This document shows positions 17,097 to 58,707 of a stretch of 64,000 bases of DNA, piece after piece. This DNA is from Thioalkalivibrio sp. ALJ21. Lineage in GTDB: Bacteria; Pseudomonadota; Gammaproteobacteria; Ectothiorhodospirales; Ectothiorhodospiraceae. The stretch is from contig NZ_KB905157.1 in the NCBI RefSeq assembly GCF_000378605.1, forward strand, positions 1 to 64,000, given 5' to 3'. Each line of letters begins with the position of its first letter. The stretch's first letter is position 1. The notes beneath the pieces are model-generated. The model was not told where the DNA came from. It saw only the letters and a list, made by a program, of their open reading frames with translations, and made no database searches. The position numbers and the translations under genes are program-made.

Positions 17097-18485
17097 ATGA
17101 CGCCCCGCGAGCTGCGCGCGACCTCCGGGCTCGCGGCCATCTATGGCGTGCGCATGGCCGGTCTGTTCATGGTGCTGCCGGTGTTCATGCTGCACTTGGA
17201 CACGCTCGCGGGTGCCACGCCGTTCCTGATGGGGCTGGCGCTGGGGATCTACGGGCTGACCCAGGCCCTGCTGCAGATCCCGTTCGGGCTGTTGTCCGAT
17301 CGGCTGGGGCGCAAGCCGTTGATCCTCGGCGGGCTCGTACTCTTCGTGCTCGGGAGTCTGGTCGCGGCCCTGGCGGAGACCGTGCACGGGGTAATCCTGG
17401 GGCGGGCGCTGCAGGGCGCCGGGGCGGTGGCCGCGGTGATCCTGGCGCTGACCGCCGATCTGGTGGGCGAGGAGCGGCGTATGCGCGCGCTCGCGGTGAT
17501 CGGGCTGACCATCGGGCTGACCTTTACCGCCTCGATGGCGCTGGGGCCGGTGGTGGATCGCGCGGCCGGCTTGAGCGGCGTCTTCGGCCTGTCCGCATTG
17601 CTCGGGGTGCTGGCGATCGTGATCCTGCTGTTCTGGGTGCCCAACCCGGAGCGTGCGCGGCAGCACCCGGACATGGTCCCCATCTGGTCCGCGCTGCCGC
17701 AGGTGCTGCGCGAACCGGAGCTGTTGCGCCTGAATCTCGGCATCTTCGTGCTGCACCTGGTGCTGGCCGCCAATTTCCTCGTGATCCCGCTGCTGCTGGT
17801 CGAGTATCTGGGGCTGGCCGGCGCCGAGCACTGGCGCTTTTACGTGCCCGTGCTGCTGGCGGGCTTTGCCCTGATGCTGCCGGGTATCATCCTGGGCGAG
17901 CGCCGCCGAAGGGTGCATATGGTGATGCGCGGGGCGATTGGCCTGCTCGTGCTGGTCCAGCTCCTGCTGGCGCTGGTCCTCTTCAATGGCATGGGCATGT
18001 GGCTCTTTGTGGCCCTGATGGTGGCGTTTTTCGCCGCCTTCAATCTGCTGGAGGCCGGGCTGCCGTCGCTGGTCGCGCGGGCGGCGCCGGTCGCGCACAA
18101 GGGGACGGCCATGGGCGGCTTCGCGACCGCGCAGTTCCTGGGGATCTTCGCCGGGGGGCTGGTCGGGGGTGGCGTGCTGACGCTGGCGGGGCCCGCCGGT
18201 GTCTTTCTGGCCTCCGTCCCCCTGCTGCTGATCTGGTTTGTGATCGCCTGGCGCATGCAGCCGCGCTACCGTTCCAACCGTGTACTGGGGGTTCCTGCCC
18301 ACTGGGCCGGTCGCGAGGCCGAGCTGCGCTACGCGCTGGTGGGCTGGCCCGGCATCGTGGAGGTGGCGCTGTCGCCCGATGCACGCTCGCTGTACCTCAA
18401 GGTCGACCCCGGCGGGCCGGATACGGAGGCCCTGGTGGCCTGGCTGGCGCAGCCACCCGATGTGGTTGCCGCACGCGGCGGCTGA
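17097..18485 (+). CDS. YajR-like major facilitator transporter with C-terminal soluble domain
   Basis: This 462-aa inner-membrane protein has twelve hydrophobic segments; motif A ([16 protein letters not shown]) lies between TM2 and TM3. After TM12 a soluble tail of about 70 residues (from [20 protein letters not shown]) has the beta-alpha-beta pattern of the YAM domain found in E. coli YajR. The substrate is unknown. The uvrA-MFS-ssb neighbourhood is conserved in pseudomonads. It is transcribed divergently from uvrA, with a 169-nt spacer. Drug export is possible but unproven. Confidence 0.85.
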
Positions 18486-18525: not shown

Positions 18526-18554
18526 CTGCCGGCTGGCGGGCGCCCTGCTACAAT
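18526..18554 (+). promoter_or_regulatory. Candidate ssb promoter upstream of the structured element
   Basis: TACAAT at 18549-18554 with TG one base before it (an extended -10) lies 17 nt after CTGCCG at 18526-18531, a weak -35. The structured element begins at the last base of this box, so a transcript to ssb would start inside the element and carry nearly all of it as 5' leader. Modest evidence. Confidence 0.4.
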
Positions 18555-18826
18555 TAAGGAAACACTGACCAATGTACGCGCTCGCGCTCGAGTCGCTTTT
18601 GCGTGCGAACAAGGCGCGGTGACTGCCGTGCAGTCATTCTGCACAAGGGAGCCGCAACGCCGTTCCCGCGCAAAAGCGGCCGAGCCCCTCCGGGGTTGGT
18701 ACCCCAGGTTCCCCGATCCTGCGTTGCGCCGCTTGCGGGTAAAACCACTACCCGCTGCACGACGCGCCTTGTCTCGGAAAACCTGGGGTACCAACGCGAG
18801 CGTGTACATTGATCAGTGTTTCCTTA
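18555..18826 (+). mobile_element. Structured TA-flanked palindromic element, copy A
   Basis: A noncoding element of 268 bp between TA dinucleotides. Terminal arms 18554-18586 and 18795-18827 are complementary at 31 of 33 positions. One of the two exceptions would be a G-U pair in RNA. Internal stems: 18609-18620 with 18761-18772; 18695-18710 with 18780-18795 (16 bp, perfect); 18735-18741 with 18749-18755; hairpin 18621-18635. The second stem crosses the first. A second copy lies at 58134-58420 in the same orientation, with compensatory changes. Any open frames through it look accidental. It fills most of the 391-nt gap before ssb. Its family is unknown to me. Confidence 0.85.
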
Positions 18827-18876
18827 ACGGTTCGTTTCCCGCGCCCTGCAAAGGCGTCAGACACTAAGGAGTTCCC

Positions 18877-19359
18877 ATGGCCCGCGGCGTCAACAAAGTC
18901 ATCCTGCTCGGCAACCTCGGGGCCGACCCGGAAAAGCGCGAGACCCCCAACGGGGTTACCGTGACCAATCTGCGTCTGGCCACCTCGGAGCAGTGGACCG
19001 ACAAGAACTCCGGCGAGAAGCGGGAGAACACCGAATGGCACCGGGTGGTGATGTTCGGGCGTCTGGCCGACATCGCCGCGCAGTACCTGTCCAAGGGCTC
19101 GCAGGTCTACATCGAGGGCAAGATCCAGACCCGCAAGTGGCAGGACCAGTCCGGCAATGACCGCTACAGCACCGAGATCGTGGCCAACGACATGCAGCTG
19201 ATCGGCGGCCGCGGGGGCAGCGGCGGTGGCGGCGGGTTCGACCAGGATCCGGGCTATGGCGGCGGCAGTTCCTACGGCGGCGGTGGCCAGCAGGGCGGCA
19301 ACCGCAGCAGCGCCCCGGTCTCCGGCGGCGCCTTCGATGACGACGACGTCCCGTTCTGA
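18877..19359 (+). CDS. ssb: Single-stranded DNA-binding protein
   Basis: This 160-aa protein has an N-terminal OB fold ([39 protein letters not shown]), a Gly-rich linker (about residues 112-145) and the acidic tip AFDDDDVPF that recruits repair and replication partners. TAAGGAG is the ribosome binding site. The gene follows the transporter across a gap filled by the structured element, so its expression could be affected by it. Confidence 0.97.
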
Positions 19360-58022: not shown

Positions 58023-58707
58023 ATGCTTGAGTACGAGCTGCGCGTTGAACGACTGGATTCGCACGGCAGTGTGGCCAGCGCCAAGCAGGCCGAGGTCACC
58101 CTGGACACCGCCATGGACGGGCGTGACGATGCGTAGGGAGACGCTGATTGAATCGCGCGTCCGCGCTCGAGTCGTTTTTGCGTGCGAACAAGGCGCGGTG
58201 ACTGCCGTGCAGTCATTCTGCACAAGGGAACCGCAACGCCGTGCGCGGGCAAAAGCGGCCGAGCCCCTGCATTGAATGAGTTGTGGGGTTGGCACCCCAG
58301 GTTCCCCGATCCTGCGTTGCGGCCCTTGCCGGTAGAACCACTACCGGCTGCGCACCGCGCCTTGTCTCGGAAAACCTGGGGTGCCAACGCGGACGTGCGA
58401 TTCAATCAGCGTCTCCCTTAGCCCGCCGGAGCTGTTGCTGGCCTCGCTTGGGGCCTGCATGGTCCGGGGTATTCAGCGGGCCCTGCCAATGCTGCGCATG
58501 GAGATCGAGACCCTGTCGATCCAGTTGCGTGGCTGGCGCCAGGACGACCCGCCCGCAATCGCCAGAATCGAGTACCGCATCGAAGTCGGGACCGACGCCG
58601 ACGAGGAGATGCTGGAGATCCTGCACCGCAACGTGCAGAAGGGCACGATCTATTCGACTCTCGCCGCCGGGACCGAACTCACCGGAGAGCTTGTCGCCAG
58701 CGCCTGA
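58023..58707 (+). pseudogene. OsmC-like gene interrupted by the structured element
   Basis: The first 37 codons (58023-58133, MLEYELRVERLDSHG...MDGRDDA) end in TAG formed at the element boundary. After 286 bases the same protein resumes at SPPELLLASLGACMVRGIQ (from 58420) and runs to TGA 58705-58707. Joined at 58133/58420 the two parts give a normal OsmC/Ohr-family protein of about 133 aa. The family reduces organic peroxides. GGAGG before the ATG is intact. Unless the insert is removed from RNA, only a truncated N-terminal peptide and perhaps a C-terminal fragment from GTG 58381 can be made. Confidence 0.85.
58134..58420 (+). mobile_element. Structured TA-flanked palindromic element, copy B
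   Basis: A second copy of the element at 18555-18826, same orientation, 283 bp between TA dinucleotides. Arms 58135-58165 and 58388-58418 are complementary at 30 of 31 positions, the exception being G-U at the same place as in copy A. Stems: 58188-58199 with 58354-58365 (12 bp); 58288-58303 with 58373-58388 (16 bp); 58328-58334 with 58342-58348; hairpin 58200-58214. Left-arm bases differ from copy A at 12 of 32 positions, 11 of them compensated in the right arm. A loop of about 13 extra bases lies near 58270. Confidence 0.85.

Follow-up and report, generated by a model that had tools for sequence, protein, structure and literature searches.

The window analysed here, a 64,000-nucleotide stretch of contig NZ_KB905157.1 of Thioalkalivibrio sp. 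ALJ21, carries two copies (A and B) of a structured element. The locus raises the question of what kind of element this is, and why its two arms match each other when the arm sequence differs between the copies. The near-identity of the interiors over 18587-18662, noted in the original prediction, was confirmed by direct reading of the sequence, and the real ends were found to lie three bases inside those first proposed, once the target duplication is left out. By the same direct reading, copy A occupies 18558-18823 (266 bp) with TTAA on either side, and copy B occupies 58137-58416 (280 bp) with TAG to the left and CTTAG to the right. The parts of both copies are given in Table 1.

Table 1. 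Parts of copies A and B and their junctions (window coordinates; CM, covariance model; TIR, terminal inverted repeat)
Feature	Position	Strand	Basis
Copy A, TTAA, left 4-bp target-site duplication	18554-18557	.	Sequence; YTAR pattern over 218 copies
Copy A, left arm; outer 16 nt, IS5-family (ISBmu23-like) TIR	18558-18586	+	
Copy A, hairpin unit 1, motif CAAGGC...AACGC	18588-18687	+	CM R1, 87.2 bits (R1 trained on same family)
Copy A, HP2, small central hairpin CCCC-TCC-GGGG, loop length varies among copies	18685-18695	.	Alignment and fold
Copy A, hairpin unit 2, CAAGGC...AACGC on opposite strand to unit 1	18694-18793	-	CM R1, 92.8 bits
Copy A, right arm, pairs with left arm except at positions 12 (C-A) and 21 (G-U)	18795-18823	-	
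Copy A, TTAA, right target-site duplication	18824-18827	.	Sequence
Copy B, TAG at left junction; stop codon for interrupted osmC-like frame	58134-58136	.	
Copy B, left arm; TIR type IS5-family (ISBmu2-like)	58137-58165	+	
Copy B, hairpin unit 1	58167-58266	+	CM R1, 84.5 bits
Copy B, hairpin unit 2	58287-58386	-	CM R1, 97.4 bits
Copy B, right arm, single G-U at arm position 21	58388-58416	-	
Copy B, CTTAG at right junction; CTGAG at orthologous empty site	58417-58421	.	

Copy A lies between the gene of an MFS transporter (17097-18485) and ssb (18877-19359), as assigned by Pfam. A TACAAT, which is a possible -10 sequence, was observed on one side of the copy and ssb on the other (window 18540-18885), so the ssb mRNA may have copy A in its leader. 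The promoter scan returned no consensus promoter near copy A and ssb. The site of copy A is retained in the orthologues of four other genomes, with different internal modules, and upstream of ssb in genome G010 (L264) a different palindrome of about 70 bp, CTAGGTGTGGAGTCTCACAAGG...CCTTGTGAGACTCCACACCTAG, was seen near the same promoter region.

Copy B splits an osmC-like gene (58023-58136 and 58417 onward; the label was taken from the sequence of the gene, without a database match), and the first 37 codons (58023-58133) end at the junction stop codon. A comparison with sister loci free of the element had been recommended in order to fix the boundaries, and the empty site was found. The sister-genome orthologue is an intact frame of 133 aa that reads GATGCG-CTGAG-CCCG at this point, and the element is missing from the osmC site in seven relatives. 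In genome G021 an element was observed at the same place of the same osmC-like gene, in the opposite orientation (L230/L246).

The window pair is not a chance match, since BLAST in the own genome (G000) located 40 or more copies for each query at E<1e-65, and at least 48 full copies could be placed there. In total, 218 distinct full Thioalkalivibrio copies were collected. Full copies are 262-344 bp long and differ by stem-module indels, and extensions of 15 nt in the stems are present or absent even between orthologues. The arms measure 28-38 bp in every full copy, and no shared ORF was apparent in the alignment of the copies. Among the matches of the species-genome scan are Thioalkalivibrio strains and two gammaproteobacterial MAGs, one of them assigned to Ca. 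Thiodiazotropha.

Truncated ends and short palindromes also appeared in the pattern scan. Six loci (L067, L068, L073, L075, L077 and L080) hold 22-bp palindromes, GGAAACACTGATCAGTGTTTCC or near variants; these are the exact remainder expected from a deletion between the two TGATCA copies in the arms. Palindromes of 26 bp of the type GGAAACGCCGAT..ATCGGCGTTTCC were seen at L069, L083, L088 and L095, and some of them lie next to another repeat (GCGGCACAGGGACGTGCCGC...GGAATC); a REP family may be involved. At L086 (G000:C2 near 28715) and L081, palindromes of about 70 bp have the same ends, lack the units and are probably internal deletion products.

According to the original prediction, pairing was kept at the ends and terminal sequence was not. 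This does not apply to the outermost bases. The outer 11-16 nt are nearly constant within each subfamily, and the outer 16 nt or so of the arms correspond to the TIRs of IS5-family insertion sequences, ISBmu23-like in copy A and ISBmu2-like in copy B. The ends of A and B differ because they represent two TIR types, each of which is kept in sequence within its type. When short arms were compared with plasmids by BLAST, the A arm matched the end of an ISBmu23-family IS5-like element at 20 of 20 nt, CTAG included, and the B arm matched the end of the IS5-like ISBmu2 at 21 of 23 nt. Arms from two other hosts matched the ends of other IS5-family elements. The individual E-values of these short matches are 0.02 to 3, and the matches carry weight because, time after time, they coincide precisely with IS5 termini that have the same CTAG flank. 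In ISBmu23-family elements the transposase gene begins about 90 bp inward from the matched end. Both ends of the ISBmu23-like elements read ctag followed by GGAAAC[A/G]CTGATCAAT, and their proteins show DDE_Tnp_1 and DUF772 domains. In Pseudomonas plasmids, no transposase gene adjoins the best matches of the B arm.

The flanks of the 218 copies follow a YTAR pattern. Identical 4-bp flanks were found in 78 copies, mostly CTAG or TTAA (47 CTAG/CTAG and 21 TTAA/TTAA), and non-identical ones in the other 140. In this set TTAA flanks are mostly intact on both sides and CTAG flanks are often altered on one side, which may reflect selection against CTAG in these genomes. By structure and ends, the element is a MITE family, and ends and flanks together suggest that it was moved by IS5 transposases. 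A known MITE whose transposase recognises fixed ends had been named as an outcome contrary to the original prediction; the TIR match points to such recognition for the outer ends only. No match to the IS5-type transposase PF01609 (DDE_Tnp_1) was obtained in the own genome, which means that the helper either is no longer there or has diverged too far; the element is accordingly classed as IS5-type by its ends, and not as an IS5 derivative that is mobilised at present. A fragment of an IS5 transposase is present in genome G034 (L421). An autonomous version had been suggested by a wide spacing of units at L505; this locus turned out to contain two separate elements, with no transposase among the intervening ORFs as judged by eye.

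Other sources of mobility fit these ends poorly. An IS630/Tc1-mariner MITE with a TA duplication within CTAG, like ERIC, RUP or Correia, is hardly credible. The CTAG and TTAA flanks do contain TA, and at CTAG sites a 2-bp TA is indistinguishable from a 4-bp YTAR, but the TTAG/TTAG pairs fit 4 bp, the matching ends lead into IS5 transposase genes and DDE_3 was found in 1 of 16 genomes searched. It is also very improbable that the element is REPIN- or BIME-like and moved by a RAYT (Y1 transposase). Genes with Y1_Tnp occur in 43 of the 47 genomes of the order; however, they occur in the element-free (g5) genomes as well, so that RAYT does not track the element. GTAG REPs are known from other Thioalkalivibrio strains (PMC3733652) and REPINs have compensatory spacer changes (PMC3116915), whereas the ends seen here are IS5 TIRs with CTAG/TTAA-type flanks and not GTAG/CGTC-tagged REP hairpins.

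The arms raise the second part of the question. The original prediction counted 12 differences between the copies in the left 32 bases, of which 11 were compensated in the right arm, and direct reading gave the same result; the uncompensated exception is arm position 12 of copy A, where C stands opposite A. Inside the TIR, the arm sequence varies between copies, yet the two arms of a copy match each other. Over 125 distinct arm pairs, mismatches with the own arm amounted to 1.66 (A type) and 1.11 (B type) per 28 bp, vs 3.86 and 2.55, respectively, with a random partner arm, and none of 500 shuffles reached the observed value.

Such matching could be classical compensatory evolution, with the whole element, arms included, being a structured RNA under selection, mobile or not. 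The G-U pair at position 21 of both window copies, which had been taken to fit RNA better than DNA, agrees with this, and so do the top-strand total over the arms (G-U 114 vs A-C 49) and the bias of orientation with respect to transcription described below. RNA pairing on one strand as the driver predicts more G-U than A-C mismatches on that strand. The excess, however, is due to positions 21 and 23, which border the core; at the other arm positions the top-strand mismatches number 48 G-U vs 41 A-C. In addition, the outer 11-16 nt are conserved in sequence as IS5 TIRs. We regard this explanation as improbable. The wobble argument stands for the internal units (74 vs 15; 31 vs 11, see below) and fails for the arms.

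Comparison of orthologues points to a process in DNA. One-sided changes make up most of the arm changes in the 30 orthologue groups examined. Matched two-sided changes were found in five groups (L287/L442, with 96% flank identity, L466/L048, L449/L150, L061/L146 and L464/L135), and for these, independent substitution at the observed rates is hardly an adequate source. Whole elements were inverted in place in 4 of the 30 groups; in one of these (L249/L480) the flanks are 98% identical. An HP1 loop module was inverted as well (L262 and L123, which represent a single locus of one strain). Homogenised arms together with an inverted spacer have been published as the mark that template switching leaves on inverted repeats (PMC8604942; PMC8794818). 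The lack of a G-U bias, the one- and two-sided changes in orthologues and the inversions in place therefore argue for homogenisation of the arms at the DNA level, and not for RNA selection on them; we infer that the arm covariation arose in this way, by template switching or conversion. Ectopic conversion between copies also contributes, because some orthologous interiors are far more or less alike than their flanks (96% vs 80% in L228/L246; 86.5% vs 94.6% in L449/L150). Covariation in a mini-element is not itself new, since compensatory spacer changes are already known in REPINs (PMC3116915).

The interior behaves differently from the arms. From alignment and fold, the arms (about 29-33 bp) are predicted to close a four-way junction of HP1, a small CCCC..GGGG hairpin of variable loop and HP3. 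HP1 and HP3, the latter read as its reverse complement, are units of one kind, about 100 nt long, which run from a lower stem of any sequence through an internal loop, CAAGGC, the upper stem and the hairpin to AACGC. The two units are inverted relative to each other, one per strand. The compensated changes noticed between the window copies (T-A to C-G in the long HP3 stem, G-C to C-G in the HP3 tip stem) are both present. Covariation was measured in 69 units outside the training set, among which those of L303, L304, L306, L308, L310, L344 and L385 are relatives within the order. In these, 94.3% of the stem cells pair, vs 34-40% in slid controls, and two-sided changes occur in 28 of the 30 pairs. 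Two-sided cells numbered 764 vs 225 in shuffles, and none of 500 shuffles reached the observed value, in statistics that ignore kinship. The figure leans towards structure because the alignment was fitted to it; the margin is still very large. The presence of real covariation in a structured multi-copy element, as originally proposed, is thus overwhelming in the internal units, across many genera.

A search of related genomes with a covariance model had also been proposed. The unit model R1, built from 19 training sequences, found matches in 35 of the 47 genomes of the order and in 113 of 369 gammaproteobacterial genomes (88 of 271 genera) at E<=1e-6; the E-values are rough by the tool's own statement, and the best distant scores are 70-87 bits. 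Nearly every distant locus has a plus unit followed by a minus unit, usually a few to 20 bases apart; matched arms of about 33 bp surround the pair, with CTAG/TTAA-like tetramers on their outer sides. The arm sequence is wholly different between lineages, and the stem letters of the core are quite different among the genera sharing it. On the Azotobacter chroococcum plasmid pAcX50f a real unit pair was found as a partial match to the whole element; BLAST of whole elements against plasmids and phages gave nothing beyond this match, and the pattern scan of viral contigs gave no element. A Pseudomonas aeruginosa PA83 plasmid (L523, 2003-2267) holds an unannotated MITE of about 265 bp; its ends are of the IS5 type, and a single unit can be recognised in it (52 bits). 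At L512, matches to the TwoAYGGAY RNA (Rfam RF01731) were seen at 1128-1243, 1398-1466 and 2863-2931; two of the three exceed the curated cut-off, and one adjoins an element.

Wobble pairs were counted in pairs common to the folds of both strands, then in ungapped stems with an equal penalty for all mismatches. On the motif strand, the non-Watson-Crick pairs of the lower stem were 74 G-T vs 15 A-C in 62 diverse units. In 28 dissimilar independent stems the counts were 31 vs 11 (p=0.003); half of the excess is concentrated 5-7 nt from the motif, and this part may be a conserved feature rather than tolerance. Several upper-stem pairs of the Thioalkalivibrio copies exist as C-G or T-A, and the intermediate seen between the two is T-G and not C-A. 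The copies located between co-directional genes are oriented 72:21, and 32:12 with a stricter gene caller (p=0.004; control 22:22); the gene strands used here rest on GC3 and open frames instead of annotation. Copies A and B are both in the minority orientation. Relative to replication, as judged by GC skew, no orientation bias was detected (36/70).

The same wobble bias on the motif strand would be expected from folded single-stranded DNA. Double-stranded DNA is the substrate of IS5-type DDE transposition, which speaks against a core that acts, with no RNA part, as single-stranded DNA extruded at replication or as a cruciform and promotes transposition, perhaps through juxtaposition of the TIRs or through binding of a host or transposase protein. 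The orientation bias, relative to transcription and not to replication, also speaks against it. On the other hand, nearly all distant loci show a symmetrical placement of the units within the TIRs, with one unit on each strand, the wobble fits this explanation as well as it fits RNA, and REPINs offer a precedent for hairpin mini-elements (PMC3116915). We consider a DNA role of this kind rather unlikely. The wobble on the motif strand, together with an orientation that follows transcription but not replication, suggests that the core acts as folded RNA; the sequence evidence favours this over folded DNA.

The account that we find probable, with considerable reserve, is that of a MITE moved in trans by IS5-family transposases, with arms copied at the DNA level and a core kept as an RNA fold. 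Copies A and B would be miniature inverted-repeat copies mobilised in trans by IS5-family (DDE) transposases. Their inner arms would drift and yet match because template switching in the course of DNA replication or recombination would copy one arm onto the other, or convert or invert the element as a whole, and transposition would sample copies with matched arms. The core would be maintained for the RNA fold that it adopts whenever read-through transcripts extend across the element. One unit per strand would supply a correctly oriented 5'-side unit whichever the direction of transcription. A plausible benefit would be a lower cost of insertion into operons, through mRNA processing, protection or read-through. 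A bolder reading falls somewhat short of an even chance in our view: the double-hairpin core may be a modular structured RNA parasite or commensal that travels under several IS5-type TIRs across Gammaproteobacteria, takes new ends, as arm copying lets its arms co-mutate, and, by folding in either direction of transcription, protects itself or the host transcript.

Among known systems, ISBmu23 and ISBmu2 (IS5 family, Burkholderia plasmids) share the terminal 16-23 nt, the CTAG flanks and the likely transposase type, whereas they are autonomous ISs of about 1.2 kb with a transposase of 330 aa. The R1 core had no match in the related IS5-family IS loci scanned, a set distinct from the ISBmu loci. 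QMITE1 and QMITE2 of Coxiella (PMC5896051), ERIC, RUP and Correia/NEMIS are similar in length (100-400 bp), TIRs, lack of an ORF, tens of copies and a very stable predicted fold. However, QMITE1 was reported without orthologues elsewhere (PMC5896051), and here one structured core occurs in 88 sampled genera under several TIR types. REPINs also have two inverted hairpin-forming units, compensatory changes in the middle and tens to hundreds of copies; their conserved 16-mer ends are tied to RAYT (PMC3116915), in contrast to the IS5 TIR ends and the conserved internal unit of about 100 nt found here. As in the Rfam 15 families, the secondary structure is backed by covariation. Rfam 15 gave no match to the core in the window at gathering scores, none in eight loci at E<=0.1 and nothing above the curated cut-off over the element in six further loci. 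As far as Rfam goes, the family is therefore undescribed, as first stated. No published description was found in the literature searched, where sequence-string matches were unrelated and mostly of primer type. What is new is the conserved, covarying two-unit core, common to many genera under several IS5-type ends.

A high-copy element covered by no Rfam family is thus present in roughly a third of the sampled gammaproteobacterial genomes. The stems of a single DNA repeat can covary strongly for two different reasons, copying at the DNA level in the arms and strand-specific pairing in the core, which calls for caution in covariation-based RNA discovery. The element is also a case, open to experiment, of one conserved folded core under different transposase ends.
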